From Acidobacteriota bacterium (GTDB taxonomy: Bacteria > Acidobacteriota > Blastocatellia > Pyrinomonadales > Pyrinomonadaceae), in NCBI GenBank assembly GCA_029557535.1, contig JAKQII010000353.1, positions 1 through 33,883 on the forward strand: a DNA stretch of 33,883 bases, given 5' to 3'. This document shows positions 9,209 to 23,022 of the stretch, in pieces. Below the pieces are notes generated by a model that saw only the letters and a program-made list of their open reading frames with translations, did no database searches and had not been told where the DNA came from. The position numbers and the translations under genes are program-made. How positions within the stretch are numbered: position 1 is the stretch's first letter; the number at the start of each line of letters is the position of its first letter.

Positions 9209-10477
9209 ATGATCGAGGCGATCGAAACAACGAAATTCCCGAACGGACTGACGATCCTTACTGACCGCATGCCGGGTGTGCGGTCGGCGACCATCGGATT
9301 TTTCTTCAAAACCGGCGCGCGGCACGAGCCCAAAGAACTCAGCGGGATTTCGCATTTCATCGAACACGCGGTCTTTAAGGGCACGCGAACGCGGAACGCG
9401 CTCGAGATCGCGATCGAGACCGACCGGCTCGGCGGCAATTTCGATGCCTTCACCATGCACGAGGAAACGGGCTTCGCGATGAAGGTCATCGACAGCGAGT
9501 TGCCGAAGGCGTTCGAACTGCTCGCCGATCTTCTGACCGATCCGCTTTTCGACGAGAAGGAACTCAAACGCGAACAAAGGGTAATCATCGAAGAAATAAA
9601 GATGACGGACGATTCGCCCGAGGAGTACCTTCACGAGATCTTCAACGAAAAGCTCTTCCCCGGCCATCCGTTGGGACGCCCGATCGCCGGCACGCCGAAA
9701 ACGGTTCGCACCTTCGGCCATGACGTAACGAAGAAATTCCACAAAGAGTTGTTTTGCCCGTCGAACCTGGTCATCGCGGCCGCCGGAAACGTCGATCACG
9801 GTCAGATCGCCGACCTCGCGAACACGTATTTCGGCATTCAACCGTCGCAAATCCGCAATTCCAAATCCGAAATCCCAAATGTGACGGCTCCGATCGTTCT
9901 GAAAAAGAACAAAACGCTCGAGCAGGCGCATCTGATCATCTCGACGCCGTTCGTTTCGGCGACGAGCGAACGTCGGTACGCCGCAGACATCCTCGCTAAC
10001 GCGCTCGGCGGCGGAACGTCTTCGCGGCTATGGCAGAAGATCCGCGAGGAAAAAGGACTCGCCTACTCGGTCGGCGCGAGCGCCGCGATGTATCAGGACT
10101 GCGGGGTGTTCACGATATTCGCCGGAACGTCGCCGAAGCAAACCGAGCAGGTTCTGAAGATCGCGCTCAAAGAAATGCGGTCGTTAGTCCGTGACGGGAT
10201 CACGCCGGACGAACTTGATCTGATGAAGGCCCAGACCGTGTCTTCTATCCTGCTGGGACTCGAAGATTCAGCCAACCGCGCATCGACGCTGGCCCGACTG
10301 GAAATGGTTCACGGGCGGCAAATTCCGCTCGAAGAGACAATTAGGAAGGTAGAAAGTGTCACAGTCGACGAAGTACGCTCGATCGCGATCGATTACTTTC
10401 AAACCGAGAACATCGGATTCGGCGCGCTTGGCGATCTCAACGGGTTCAAAGTCACGCGGGCCCGCCTCGAAGTTTGA
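9209..10477 (+). CDS. M16-family zinc peptidase (processing-peptidase type)
   Basis: A 422-residue single-unit M16B peptidase, the typical bacterial length. The inverted zinc motif is His49-Phe-Ile-Glu52-His53 in GISHFIEHAVFKGT. The distal acid is in QRVIIEEIKM, and the second domain carries the ANALGGGTSSRLWQKIREEKGLAYSVGA segment typical of processing peptidases. No signal peptide is seen, so it probably acts in the cytoplasm. TGCTAGATT lies 15 bases before the ATG, and GAAG may serve as a weak ribosome site. Residues 214-224 (QIRNSKSEIPN) are encoded by a short-word array at 9848-9881 like those found between genes. It sits in the linker between the two halves, where an insertion could be tolerated. 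Confidence 0.92.
   Translation: MIEAIETTKFPNGLTILTDRMPGVRSATIGFFFKTGARHEPKELSGISHFIEHAVFKGTRTRNALEIAIETDRLGGNFDAFTMHEETGFAMKVIDSELPKAFELLADLLTDPLFDEKELKREQRVIIEEIKMTDDSPEEYLHEIFNEKLFPGHPLGRPIAGTPKTVRTFGHDVTKKFHKELFCPSNLVIAAAGNVDHGQIADLANTYFGIQPSQIRNSKSEIPNVTAPIVLKKNKTLEQAHLIISTPFVSATSERRYAADILANALGGGTSSRLWQKIREEKGLAYSVGASAAMYQDCGVFTIFAGTSPKQTEQVLKIALKEMRSLVRDGITPDELDLMKAQTVSSILLGLEDSANRASTLARLEMVHGRQIPLEETIRKVESVTVDEVRSIAIDYFQTENIGFGALGDLNGFKVTRARLEV
9848..9881 (+). repeat. In-frame word-repeat array inside the M16 gene (R4)
   Basis: The 34 bases are composed of the words CAAATCCGCAATT, CCAAATCCGAAATCCC and CAAATG. Nearly the same words make up the intergenic array at 27798-27833. Length and phase keep the M16 frame open, adding residues 214-224. 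Confidence 0.75.
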
Positions 10478-16042: not shown

Positions 16043-16251
16043 TAGTTTACCTCTTAACTAAGTTCGAAATTTTTCTTCCCGCGGGTTGTTATCTATTCGT
16101 AGTTTGAACCTTCGATTCGGTTGCTTTGACCACCGATTAATTTTTTTCGCCATGCGTGACCGACGATGCGTTACCGCCATCCGCGCGGCGGCCGCCGTTC
16201 ACGACAATACGGCGTTTTGGGTTAGAATCGATGCAACAAGGAGACGTCAAT

Positions 16252-17553
16252 ATGCGCAAACAACTGAAAGATTTCATGGAGCAGATCGGGAAGGACGCGA
16301 TCGCCGTTATTCCGGCGGCTCACGAACAAACGCGGAGCTACGACACGGAGTTCAAGTTTCACCAAGACCCTGATTTTTACTATCTCACGGAATTCCCGGA
16401 GCCCGATGCGATCGCCGTCATCGATCCGGCCGCCCGAAAATCGCGGTTCACGCTTTTTGTCCGGCCGCGCGACCCGTTGATGGAAACCTGGTATGGTCGT
16501 CGCCAGGGCGTCGAGGGCGCAAAAAAGAACTACGGGGCCGACAAGGCGATGCCGATCGAGAAATTTGAGTCCGAGTTACCGAAATTGTTGAACGGCAAGG
16601 AGAAACTTTATTACCGATTCGGGCTCGACAACCGGCTTGACCAAGTGATCCTGAATTATCTCTCGGGACAGCGTTTCCGGCGTCTCAAGACGGCTTACCC
16701 GCCGCATACGATCATCGATCCGACGCTGCTCATAGGTGAAATGCGGCTGCATAAAACTCCTGAAGAAGTTGCGTTGATGCAGAAGGCGGCCGACATCGCG
16801 GCCGAAGCGCACGTCGTGGCGATGCGCGAGTGCAAGCCGGGATTGAACGAGGCGCAGATCGAAGCGATCATCGAGCACCACTTCCGGATGTCGGGCGCAG
16901 CCGGCGCGTCGTACAACTCGATCGTCGGCGGCGGCGCGAACGCGACCATCCTGCATTACGTCGAGAACAATGCTCCGCTGAAGGACGGCGACCTGCTCCT
17001 CGTCGACGCCGGCTGCGAATATCAAGGCTATGCTTCGGACATCACGCGCACGTTCCCGGTCAATGGCCGTTTCACAAAGGCGCAGCGTGAAGTTTACGAC
17101 GTCGTTCTTGAGGTCCAGTTGGAATGCCTTGCAGCGACCCGAAAAGGCGTCACCGTGAAGGACCGGCAGGATCTGTCGATCGAGCTCCTGACCGAAGGCA
17201 TGAAGAAGTTGGGACTGCTGAAAGGAAAGACGAAGGACCTGATCAAGAAAGGCGCTTACATGAAGTATTACATGCACGGCGTCGGCCACTATCTCGGACT
17301 CGACGTTCATGATGCCGGACGTTATTTCACCGAGCAGAAAGCGCGCTTTTCACGTCCGTTCGAGCCGGGAATGGTACTCACGGTCGAGCCGGGTCTTTAT
17401 ATTCCGGCGGACGACAAAACAGCGCCGGCAAAATATCGCGGTATCGGGATCAGGATCGAAGACGACATTCTGGTTACCGAAGACGGTAACGTGAACCTGA
17501 CCGTCGGCGTCCCGAAAGACGCGGATGCGATCGAGGAAATAATGAACAGCTAG
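16252..17553 (+). CDS. pepP: Xaa-Pro aminopeptidase (M24B)
   Basis: A 433-residue dinuclear metallopeptidase that removes N-terminal residues preceding proline. The N-terminal creatinase-like domain (1-165; DPDFYYLTEFPEPDA) is followed by the pita-bread catalytic domain. The metal ligands are visible: Asp in LLLVDAGCEY, Asp in ASDITRTFPV, His in MHGVGHYLGLDVHD, Glu in LTVEPGLYIP and Glu in GIRIEDD. AAGGAG 8 bases upstream fixes the start at 16252; longer frames to 16156 have no homology to the family. TTAGAAT at about 16222-16228 may be the -10 region. There is no signal peptide, so it is cytoplasmic. The stop TAG is the first three bases of the TAGACGG array. Confidence 0.94.
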   Translation: MRKQLKDFMEQIGKDAIAVIPAAHEQTRSYDTEFKFHQDPDFYYLTEFPEPDAIAVIDPAARKSRFTLFVRPRDPLMETWYGRRQGVEGAKKNYGADKAMPIEKFESELPKLLNGKEKLYYRFGLDNRLDQVILNYLSGQRFRRLKTAYPPHTIIDPTLLIGEMRLHKTPEEVALMQKAADIAAEAHVVAMRECKPGLNEAQIEAIIEHHFRMSGAAGASYNSIVGGGANATILHYVENNAPLKDGDLLLVDAGCEYQGYASDITRTFPVNGRFTKAQREVYDVVLEVQLECLAATRKGVTVKDRQDLSIELLTEGMKKLGLLKGKTKDLIKKGAYMKYYMHGVGHYLGLDVHDAGRYFTEQKARFSRPFEPGMVLTVEPGLYIPADDKTAPAKYRGIGIRIEDDILVTEDGNVNLTVGVPKDADAIEEIMNS

Positions 17554-17646
17554 ACGGTAGACGGTAGACGGTAGACGGATTCTTGCCTTTCAATCGCAAA
17601 TTGCAAATTGAAAATCGCAAATCAAGGGTCTACTGCCTACCGTCTA
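17551..17646. repeat. TAGACGG tandem array with inverted partner (R6)
   Basis: Four exact tandem copies of TAGACGG fill 17551-17578. At 17626-17646 the minus strand reads TAGACGG, TAGGCAG and TAGACCC, giving an inverted partner. Between them (17591-17623) are ATCGCAAATT/GCAAATTG words. The first TAG on each strand is the stop codon of the converging gene: the Xaa-Pro aminopeptidase and the M16-like protein. The arms can pair as a long hairpin and could act as a bidirectional terminator, although no T-run follows. Confidence 0.9.
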
Positions 17647-19014
17647 GTTCTTCTGCAGAAAAATATCCCGGTTGATCGCGGCCGGATCACCGATCACGAC
17701 AAAGCGGATATTCTTCATGTACTTCTGCGCGACGCGGCGAATGTCCGTGTCTCTGACCTCCCGGATCCGGTCGATGAACTCATACGATTTCTTCCAACCG
17801 CCTCCTGCAAGTTCGTACCGCGCGAGCGATCCGGCCTGTGCGGCATTCGTCTCTTCGCCAAGATAATAGGTTGTCAAAAAGTAGTTCGAGACGGCGGAGA
17901 TCTCTGACCGATCGACGAGCCGGGTTTTCAACAGATTGATCTCCTGCAGCATCACGCTGATTGCCTGGTTCGCGTCGTTTGCGGTCACATAAATGTTTGC
18001 TGTGTTGGTCGCGGTGGCATTGATCTCGGCGTTCGGAGCGTAGGAAAGCTGACGCTTTACGCGGACCTCGCGGAAGAACTGAGCCTGCAGAAGACTGATC
18101 GCGACGCGCATCGGATAATAATCGGGACTTCCCGGTGGCGGCGCGTCAAAGACTCCCTTGATATAGTTCGTCGGCAAGTCTCTCTGGACGACCTCCAACG
18201 TCGGTTTTGAAAAATCAATTTGCGGCAACGACGTATCCTCGTATTCGCCTCGGGGCAATTTCCCGAAGGTTGACGCCACTTTTTCCCTGATTGCCTGAGG
18301 ATCGAGATCGCCGACAAAGACAAGCAGAAGCTGTGACGTCTGCATAACCTTCTTGTGGTGTCCCCGGAGCTGTGCCAAAGTGAATTTCGAAACGGTTTCG
18401 AGCGAGCCGTCAGTTTCGAAAGAGTACGGATGGCCGGTATAAACGACGCGGTTCTCCAGAACGTCAAGATAATTATCGGGATTCGTCTCAGACTCTTTGA
18501 GGCCCGTCATGATCTGTTCCCGGACGCGCTCGACGTCGGCCGGGGCAAAGACGGGGTTGATAACAACGTCGGCGAATAATTCCCACATTCGGTCAAAATT
18601 CGGGCGCGTCACGCCAAGTGAAAAGACACTGAAGTCCTTTCCGGCCGTACCGCCGACGGTCGATCCGGTACGGGCGAGTTCGCGGCGAACGACATCGCGC
18701 TTGAACTTTGCCCCGGCTTCGATCGAAGCGTTGATCATGAAATTCTCAAGACCGGCCGTCTTATCGGAGCTGTTGCGAACACCACCGCGAACGAAAAGTC
18801 CAGCGGCAACCGTTTCCGCGTTCGGACGCCGTTTGACCAGAACTTTCAGTCCGTTGACCTCGAATTCGGTCACCTGCGACGCGCCATCCGCCGATCGCGG
18901 CGCGCCTCCGGCTTGTGCCATCGCGGCCGACGCCGCAAGAGTCATCGTCAGCAGCAAGAATGCCAGTCGTCTCCCAACGATTTCAAAACGAGTTGATTTC
19001 ATATTCCTTACCAT
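17644..19014 (-). CDS. Secreted M16-like protein lacking the zinc motif
   Basis: A 456-residue exported M16 homologue with an N-terminal signal peptide (about residues 10-34, ending AMAQ). The fold is clear: FEVNGLKVLVKRRPNAETVAAGLFVRGG at the start, a GLRGHH-like middle segment and FREVRVKRQLSYAPNAEI in the second half. Where active members have HxxEH, this one reads GLENFMINAS, with no histidines, so it should not bind zinc. It lies 16 bases downstream of an M16 protein with an intact site, the known pattern of two-subunit M16 peptidases (catalytic plus inactive, substrate-holding partner). The stop codon is within repeat R6. The start is either the ATG at 19014 or the one at 19002; GGAG is 12 bases before the first, and AAGGA is too close to the second. 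Confidence 0.88.
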   Translation of the reverse strand: MVRNMKSTRFEIVGRRLAFLLLTMTLAASAAMAQAGGAPRSADGASQVTEFEVNGLKVLVKRRPNAETVAAGLFVRGGVRNSSDKTAGLENFMINASIEAGAKFKRDVVRRELARTGSTVGGTAGKDFSVFSLGVTRPNFDRMWELFADVVINPVFAPADVERVREQIMTGLKESETNPDNYLDVLENRVVYTGHPYSFETDGSLETVSKFTLAQLRGHHKKVMQTSQLLLVFVGDLDPQAIREKVASTFGKLPRGEYEDTSLPQIDFSKPTLEVVQRDLPTNYIKGVFDAPPPGSPDYYPMRVAISLLQAQFFREVRVKRQLSYAPNAEINATATNTANIYVTANDANQAISVMLQEINLLKTRLVDRSEISAVSNYFLTTYYLGEETNAAQAGSLARYELAGGGWKKSYEFIDRIREVRDTDIRRVAQKYMKNIRFVVIGDPAAINRDIFLQKN

Positions 19015-20707: not shown

Positions 20708-20923
20708 ATGGAACGAGACAATTTGATGCATGGGGCCCGGACAGCGATGAACCGCAGCCCCGAGATCCGCGAATGGGCGGAGAACTATCTGAAGGCGAAA
20801 ACACGTACCGAAAACGAGTCGATGTCGGACGAGGAATTCGAAAAATACTGGAAGTACCACAAGCCCGAGATCATGCACGCCGGCGCCGCTGAAGCGATCG
20901 AGGCTTATAAGAGTGAGCGGTGA
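20708..20923 (+). CDS. Small acidic helical protein, unknown function
   Basis: A 71-residue frame from the ATG at 20708, with AAGGA just upstream. It is hydrophilic and rich in Glu, Lys and Ala (REWAENYLKAKTRT, EEFEKYWKYHKPEIMH), predicted mainly helical, with no cysteines or membrane segment. I do not recognise a family. Composition and codon choice match real genes nearby. It is divergent from the M16 pair and convergent with the nuclease. Its last three residues, SER, and its TGA stop are written in GTGAGC repeat words, as in the P450 gene. The native C-terminus may therefore have been different. Confidence 0.55.
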   Translation: MERDNLMHGARTAMNRSPEIREWAENYLKAKTRTENESMSDEEFEKYWKYHKPEIMHAGAAEAIEAYKSER

Positions 20924-21028
20924 GCAGTGAGCGGTCGATTTGCAATTTTCGATTTGCAATTTGCGATCGTTCGATCAGACCGACGGCTTTCTGCTTGCTG
21001 CTCACGGCTCACTGCTCACTGCTCACTG
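20912..21028. repeat. GTGAGC word array with inverted partner (R7)
   Basis: At 20912-20933 the plus strand reads AGTGAGCGGTGAGCAGTGAG and on. At 20998-21028 the minus strand reads CAGTGAGCAGTGAGCAGTGA followed by GCCGTGAGCAGC. Between them are TCGATTTGCAATT words (20935-20966). The stop codons of the small gene (20921-20923) and the nuclease (21023-21025) are both the TGA of a GTGAGC unit. The arms can form a long hairpin between the convergent genes. Confidence 0.9.
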
Positions 21029-22897
21029 AATATTGAAGATCGCCAGCGCCGAGTCGTGGTCCGAAAATCGTTCGACGCGGTTCGGATCGTTCCTGTAAAT
21101 CTCAGGGAAATCGGAGTTGATGTGGGCGAATCCGAATCCGACCACATTCTTCCGGAACGGACCGTTGACGATGAAGTGATCGAGAACCTGGCCATTGCCG
21201 TCGAACACATATGAATAACGTTTCTTCGGATCGATCAAATCCACGAGGTTAACAAGATCCGATTCGACCAGATCATCCATCGGGACGATCAGCGAATCCT
21301 TGGCGGCCGGAGTGCCTTTGATCGTTCCGATAACGTCCATGATCCCGTCGCTGAATTGATAGAAGTTGAAATCGCCGATCAGGGCGATCCTCTCGTTCGG
21401 ATTCGCCTTCTGGCGCTCGTTGACGAATTTGGCGAGGAACTCGGCCTGGAGCTTTTTTTTCATCCTCACGAACGGCGCGTCCTTTTCGTCATCGTAACCA
21501 CGAAACGACTTCAGATGGTTCACTATTACGGTGAACTCGAACGGCGTCCCACCGTTCTTGATCGATGCACGCAGCAGAAACGGCGGCCGGTCGTTCAAAT
21601 GGACATCGTTCTTTGATACGGGGTTCTTGAATTCGTCGTCCTTTCCGAACTGCACGGTCTCGAGGACCTCTACACGCGATCTTTTCACAAGGAACCCGGA
21701 ATCGATTCCGCCCGGATCGTTTCCTTCGACGAGATACGCGTCATACTTCGGATTTTCGGCACCCGACAGTTCAACATCCTTGTTGATCCGCTCGGCCAGA
21801 CGTTTCAATGCCGACAGGTTCTCGGCCTCGACCATTCCAATGACATCCGGCATTTTCAGATACATGCGGATCGCCCGTGAGATCTTCTTGAGCCGCCGGT
21901 CGAATCCATCGCGGGTGATGATCGGCTCCTTGACGTCGGGATCGTCCTCATCGTCAAAGAAACGTTCGATGTTCATCGACGCGATCGAAAGTTGGTTATC
22001 CTTGGGCGACGGAAGCGCCGATGCCTCCATGAGCCCGGAAACCTCTGGCTTGTTGTCGGGGTCGAGACGCACGGCGTAGGCGCGGTAAATGTAATCGACC
22101 ACGCCGGTGAGGTTCTTGACCGTTGCGCCGGTAGAGACGTCGATCGCCTGTCCGCCCAGCTGCCCCATGCTCTCGATCCTGATTCGCTCCGGGTTGTGAT
22201 CGAAAATCGGGATCTTCGGGGAATCGCGCTTGAGCTTGTCCTTTTCCTTGTCCGGCATCAGCAAGTAACTCAGAATGTCGAGACCCGGTTCGCGAAACGG
22301 CCGCTGGAAACCCGGCAAAACTCCGTAAAACGCGCCGCTCGATGCGGACGTCCCGTTCACTTCGTCAACCGAACCGCGCTTGTCGGTCGGCGCAACGACG
22401 CTGACCTCGCGGATCGTTACCCGCATTCCTTCATACTTTTCGAGTTGGTTGACGACCAAAGGCTTAAAATCTTCCATCGTGAGGACGACCGGTTTCGGCA
22501 GCGCGTTGTCCTTCGACTCGACCGCGACAAGATCGCGCCCGCTCTGCATCGAAATCTCGGTGATGGTCAGGCTCGACGGATCGCCGAATTCCTTGACTTC
22601 CCCGGTCACGGTTACGAGATTTCCGACCGTCGCCTCGCCGCCCGGTTCGGTTTTCGTGAAGACATAGATCGCCTCTGACGTCTTCGGATTGTCGTCAACC
22701 TTGTCATCCGGATTTTGAATAAAGAACCCGGCCCTTGTCCGCGCGGTAACGATACCCGTCACGCGCACGATCTCGCGTACGTACGGCGAGATGTCTTTAT
22801 CACCTTGAATCTCATTGATCTGCCGGGACCGCTGCGCCGACGCATCTACCGCAAGCAAACACAGAATTCCAAATAACCCAATGATGGCTCGTTTCAT
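21023..22897 (-). CDS. Secreted endonuclease/exonuclease/phosphatase-family nuclease
   Basis: A 624-residue exported protein. The signal peptide covers about residues 1-22 (KRAIIGLFGILCLLAVDASAQ). An OB-fold-like segment (about 30-120: VRVTGIVTARTRAGFFIQNP) is followed by a linker region and an EEP nuclease domain (about 300-624). The nuclease motifs are present in order: SIASMNIERFF, VIGMVEAEN (metal-binding Glu), VNHLKS, IGDFNFYQFSDG (Asp/Asn) and the C-terminal SDHDSALAIF (Asp-His). This arrangement matches extracellular nucleases of the ExeM/NucH type, which degrade DNA or RNA outside the cell. The ATG at 22897 places the signal peptide at the N-terminus; an ATG at 22912 adds five residues. 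The stop codon lies in the R7 repeat. Confidence 0.88.
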   Translation of the reverse strand: MKRAIIGLFGILCLLAVDASAQRSRQINEIQGDKDISPYVREIVRVTGIVTARTRAGFFIQNPDDKVDDNPKTSEAIYVFTKTEPGGEATVGNLVTVTGEVKEFGDPSSLTITEISMQSGRDLVAVESKDNALPKPVVLTMEDFKPLVVNQLEKYEGMRVTIREVSVVAPTDKRGSVDEVNGTSASSGAFYGVLPGFQRPFREPGLDILSYLLMPDKEKDKLKRDSPKIPIFDHNPERIRIESMGQLGGQAIDVSTGATVKNLTGVVDYIYRAYAVRLDPDNKPEVSGLMEASALPSPKDNQLSIASMNIERFFDDEDDPDVKEPIITRDGFDRRLKKISRAIRMYLKMPDVIGMVEAENLSALKRLAERINKDVELSGAENPKYDAYLVEGNDPGGIDSGFLVKRSRVEVLETVQFGKDDEFKNPVSKNDVHLNDRPPFLLRASIKNGGTPFEFTVIVNHLKSFRGYDDEKDAPFVRMKKKLQAEFLAKFVNERQKANPNERIALIGDFNFYQFSDGIMDVIGTIKGTPAAKDSLIVPMDDLVESDLVNLVDLIDPKKRYSYVFDGNGQVLDHFIVNGPFRKNVVGFGFAHINSDFPEIYRNDPNRVERFSDHDSALAIFNIQ

Positions 22898-23022
22898 AAG
22901 TTGATCGTTCAAACGACGAACGTCGTCCTGTTTCGATGATTGAATTCTACTTCGCGCAGATAAAAAGTATGTGAAGAATCTAACACAGGCCTGAATCGAT
23001 TCCGAGTCGGCGCGACCGAACC

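Follow-up and report, generated by a model that had tools for sequence, protein, structure and literature searches.

Tail-to-tail peptidase genes and the arrays between them

The window, i.e. the whole stretch of DNA that was analysed (33,883 nt of contig JAKQII010000353.1, from the draft genome of an uncultured Acidobacteriota bacterium of the Blastocatellia), contains two genes that meet tail to tail: a gene for an M24 metallopeptidase with an AMP_N domain, resembling Xaa-Pro aminopeptidase (16156-17553, plus strand), and a gene for an M16 family peptidase (17644-19014, minus strand). The region between them is bounded by two arrays of the heptamer TAGACGG that lie in inverted orientation. 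The direct arm (17551-17578, plus strand) consists of four exact tandem copies, and its first TAG, at 17551-17553, is the stop codon of the M24 ORF. The inverted arm (17628-17646) reads TAGACGG TAGGCAG TAGAC on the minus strand, which corresponds to one exact and ca. 1.7 degenerate copies, and the M16 gene stops at the first TAG of this arm (17644-17646). A preliminary description of this DNA had proposed that the plus-strand gene has its stop in the first TAG of four exact copies and the minus-strand gene in the first TAG of an inverted copy, and that both coding regions end in the first unit of the array; all three points are borne out here, and only the inverted copy needs amending, since it belongs to a longer and partly degenerate arm. 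The loop between the arms is occupied by an inner, AATCGCA-like heptamer array of 4.6 copies (17592-17623).

The hairpin region extends over 17544-17653, with arms of 26 nt (17544-17569 and 17628-17653) that are 85% complementary, and the RNA of 17530-17665 is predicted to fold at -45 kcal/mol (z = -5.6). This places a stable hairpin just 3' of the gene, as found in intrinsic terminators; a U-tract directly after the stem is absent, no canonical terminator was detected at the M24/M16 locus, and a search of Rfam gave no match.

Other heptamer arrays occur in the window. The TGA stop of a third gene (21023-22912, minus strand) is supplied by a TGAGCAG array located at 20998-21028, whose partner arm, a GTGAGCR array, is found at 20913-20935 with an ATTTGCA array in between. 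Two more inverted pairs of heptamer arrays lie near gene 3' ends (178-206/346-373 and 27528-27551/27796-27832). Finally, a CAAATCC-like array (9848-9880) located within an M16 peptidase ORF (9209-10477) is in frame, encodes IRNSKSEIPN and was probably inserted into the gene.

The pairing of the M16 gene with a neighbouring M16 gene is conserved in all 22 relatives examined, but M24-M16 adjacency was found in none of the relative loci fetched. Where both genes were found, they were located either far apart on one contig or on different contigs, the latter being weaker evidence for separation because the assemblies of the relatives are fragmented. The tail-to-tail junction therefore appears to be particular to this genome or its close lineage. 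The array sits at this rearrangement junction (17553/17644), a single case that does not prove that arrays cause junctions.

Comparison of C-termini with those of orthologues

The C-termini of four proteins whose genes end in arrays were compared with those of orthologues. The M24 protein ends in EEIMNS*, as opposed to EEIMNSAKV*, EEIMNTGRE* and EELMMKSLN* in the three same-genus genomes, and is at least 3 residues shorter than these orthologues. The isoleucyl-tRNA synthetase (IleRS) ends in EIEK-SRP*, of which SRP is encoded by the array, versus EIERSAAA* or EIEKSAAA* in orthologues, and an SDR/DUF1731 protein ends in KDQ-VDSRQ* versus KHVLD* and similar ends. The M16 protein, on the other hand, has its native length with no overwriting visible. 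The comparison thus supports, at the level of sequence, the overwriting of a variable tail by the array in three of the four genes (M24, IleRS and SDR), while in M16 the array may have joined at or beside the native TAG. The idea that the array inserted by replacing native stops, one of the two origins put forward in the preliminary description, accordingly fits the first three genes and not the fourth.

That same description had allowed that TAGACGG might simply be present at orthologous stop codons through amino-acid conservation, but none of the compared M24, IleRS, SDR and M16 orthologues has TAGACGG at its stop. Other heptamers were detected at orthologous 3' ends, namely GGGATGA in G003 (SDR) and G017 (M24), AAATCCG in G002 (SDR) and GGTTAGT in G026 (IleRS). 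For annotation, arrays of this kind replace native C-terminal tails, and array-coded ends should not be taken as features of the protein.

Abundance of period-7 arrays in the genome

The genome was sampled as stretches totalling 557 kb from a draft assembly of 404 contigs, and genes were called with a simple codon-usage finder that gives exact stops and approximate starts. Much of the sample comes from contigs picked for TAGACRG arrays, so that the abundance of this unit is inflated but not that of the others. The genome contains 24 occurrences of doubled TAGACGG versus none for the same motif written backwards, indicating that the array is not due to chance, and the wider pattern TAGRCRG has 73 matches, again with none for its control. 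In the first 336 kb sampled, 49 exact runs of period 7 were found (45 intergenic and 4 coding), making this the dominant tandem repeat, as compared to at most 7 runs for each period that is not a multiple of 7. When mismatches were tolerated, the 557 kb contained 147 arrays of period 7, i.e. ca. 26 per 100 kb, versus at most 24 for any other period examined (5, 6, 8-11 and 13). The number of copies differs between loci. Near stops, the predominant units are GATTTNN, TAGRCRG, GTGAGCR, GATTCAA and AAAAGGS. Several draft contigs (C81, C315, C343 and C374 of G000) start 2-50 nt from a TAGRCRG array, suggesting that the assembly was probably broken by the arrays.

Position, strand polarity and pairing

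Arrays are densest where genes converge (3.20 per kb), followed by intergenic regions of tandem (1.31 per kb) and divergent genes (0.14 per kb). The distance to a gene 3' end is at most 5 nt for 43% of the arrays, as opposed to 7% when arrays are randomly placed in the same intergenic regions. After stops, the G-rich unit was on the sense strand in 53 classifiable arrays and on the antisense strand in none; since the unit classes behind this count were named after the data had been seen, the G/C skew and the relatives provide more independent tests of polarity. By skew, sense and antisense arrays after stops number 57 and 5 in this genome and 29 and 6 in the pooled relatives, and the bias is reversed before starts (4 versus 20, and 8 versus 28, respectively).

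An inverted partner was found within 250 bp for 40 of the 61 stop-adjacent arrays, about a third having no clear partner arm. Predicted folding is stronger at 3' ends that carry arrays than at other 3' ends (median z of -2.6 versus -0.7), and runs of five T are rarer there (13% versus 31%). A hairpin requires no fixed order of strands, so the fold does not account for the polarity. That many unrelated units obey one rule of position and strand argues that transcription or RNA, and not the unit itself, imposes the rule. The membership of the array in a genome-wide, strand-polar class of heptamers at 3' ends had escaped the preliminary description, as had the fact that the supply of stops results from unit composition together with position.

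Distribution among relatives and other phyla

A pattern of 2.4 TAGACGG units was not detected in the three same-genus genomes and was found in only two other genomes of the family. Period-7 arrays as such were detected in nine sampled relatives, at about 7-38 per 100 kb, and are dense in G013, G022, G008 and G025; none was found in samples of 40-60 kb from five others (G016, G023, G024, G011 and G034). Because this distribution is patchy, the cause of the arrays could be mapped to gene content.

Beyond the family, (TAGACGG)3 was retrieved from at least 116 stretches belonging to many phyla. When located after stops in other phyla, these arrays are sense in 40 cases and antisense in 9, and 18 of them contain the stop itself, in copy 1, 2 or 3 in 10, 4 and 4 cases, respectively. 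Horizontal transfer of TAGACGG between phyla was considered and is not needed, since recurrence by chance is expected from our own estimate, which assumes ca. 1,170 classes of heptamers and 85,000 genomes, those rich in heptamers having several units each.

Origin and possible role of the arrays

In the genome sample, 14 genes stop inside a TAG-type array, in copy 1, 2 or 3 in 6, 4 and 4 cases, respectively, as assigned by eye; both window genes are among the six copy-1 stops. Such a spread is predicted if an array lands in any frame. Seven further TAG-type arrays come after a separate, independent native stop. Heptamers without stop codons, such as GATTTNN, occupy the same position at gene ends. 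These observations, together with the replaced tails of three genes, make it very unlikely that each array grew by tandem duplication from a native TAG followed by ACGG, and the other origin put forward in the preliminary description, seeding from a stop-codon context, is unsupported as a general route. What speaks for such growth is the copy-1 stop of the two window genes and the native length of the M16 end; copy 1 is also slightly favoured in the pooled counts (16, 8 and 8 for copies 1, 2 and 3), so that in some cases the TAG of the array may be a native one. Selection for stop codons within the unit was likewise rejected: among sense-only units, 19 of 52 bear a stop, where a fraction of 0.32 is expected from composition, and stop-bearing units are thus no commoner than their purine-rich composition predicts. 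Given this and the stop-free GATTTNN arrays found in the same place, the supply of stops is an incidental outcome of unit composition and position, and not the seed of the array.

Polymerase slippage might also make and expand arrays that persist only where tolerated, their 3'-end location being due to selection purging insertions in genes or promoters and their hairpins having no function. Slippage has been put forward as the source of 7-nt units (Mrazek 2007, as cited in PMC4679880 and PMC4692102), and arrays are depleted in genes and in divergent, i.e. promoter, regions, while units turn over quickly between relatives. Yet such a neutral process predicts neither the strand polarity after stops seen in this genome and in its relatives nor the frequent inverted partner arm, and we regard it as possible but doubtful. 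The palindromic and intergenic nature of the repeats, along with 11 Y1_Tnp matches in the genome, might instead suggest hairpins moved by a Y1, REP-associated transposase (RAYT). This is highly improbable: Y1_Tnp is missing from G013, with its 38 arrays per 100 kb, while 60 kb of G016 and of G011 contain no arrays despite 13 and 9 Y1_Tnp matches, respectively. The units, moreover, vary freely without a fixed head. Overall, the presence of arrays was not associated with Y1_Tnp in the 15 sampled genomes, and Y1 transposase was rejected as the mover.

The locus is thus probably best understood as one copy of a genome-wide class of 3'-end heptamers that have a fixed orientation, land in any frame and often form a putative 3' hairpin by inverted pairing. 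At sequence level, this class combines a 7-nt periodicity, a position at stops, a G-rich sense strand after stops, a frequent inverted partner, scarcity between divergent genes and units that change from one relative to another. As suggested by the comparisons, arrays would arise or land at a gene end irrespective of reading frame, and the last residues of the gene may be overwritten in the process. With TAGACGG every 7 nt, three units suffice to place TAG in each of the three frames, and the gene ends at the first in-frame TAG. In RNA, the arms would fold into a long 3' hairpin serving both convergent genes, for which we infer a role as a terminator or in protection of the mRNA 3' end. A bolder proposal, which we consider unlikely, is that polar heptamer hairpins are active 3'-end elements that recurrently colonise gene ends, overwrite tails and provide an all-frame stop together with a bidirectional terminator, being especially useful at fresh tail-to-tail junctions such as M24/M16; their 7-nt unit would then be made by a factor that only part of the genomes of the family possess.

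Relation to known heptamer repeats

To our knowledge, repeated heptamers have been recognised in bacterial genomes for a long time, with no demonstrated function. Those known as STRR were reportedly described by Mazel in 1990 in Calothrix and other cyanobacteria. The arrays described here resemble them in being dispersed, mainly intergenic tandem heptanucleotides with an over-represented 7-nt unit and several units per genome, but STRR belong to another lineage and have other units. These cyanobacterial repeats are also mentioned in PMC4692102. REP elements are, likewise, extragenic inverted repeats downstream of genes that are able to fold in RNA; the arms here differ in being tandem heptamers without a fixed head sequence or association with Y1 transposase. 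The intrastrand-triplex (PIT/BoxC) repeats (PMC4666352) were considered as a precedent and set aside, as no relation to heptamers or stop codons was found.

Two published systems come closest. TAACTGA direct repeats occur in marine Beggiatoaceae, Cyanobacteria and Bacteroidetes, and their arrays carry stops in all frames that end overlapping genes (MacGregor 2015, PMC4679880). They share with the present arrays the tandem, mainly intergenic heptamers and the forward stops in all three frames, some of which overlap the stop of the upstream gene. They differ in that they lie mostly just upstream of start codons and not at 3' ends as in this Acidobacteriota genome, and in that they have one main unit and almost never form inverted pairs, whereas here units are many and inverted pairs common. 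The second system corresponds to the GGGAATC/GGGGAYT heptamers of Xanthomonas and Nostoc (Rehm 2015, PMC4692102), in which the G-rich strand is sense within 50 bp after stops and some repeats overlap stops; these are rare between divergent genes and, in Xanthomonas, form many inverted pairs. The G-rich sense strand after stops and the rarity between divergent genes are both found here. Each species, however, has a single G-quadruplex-forming unit in that system, as opposed to several units here, one of which contains a stop, and the present units mostly lack the G-tracts needed for a quadruplex (at least four tracts of at least three G), TAGACGG having only GG. The M24/M16 locus is therefore a local case of a kind of heptamer repeat already published for other bacteria, as TAACTGA and as GGGAATC.
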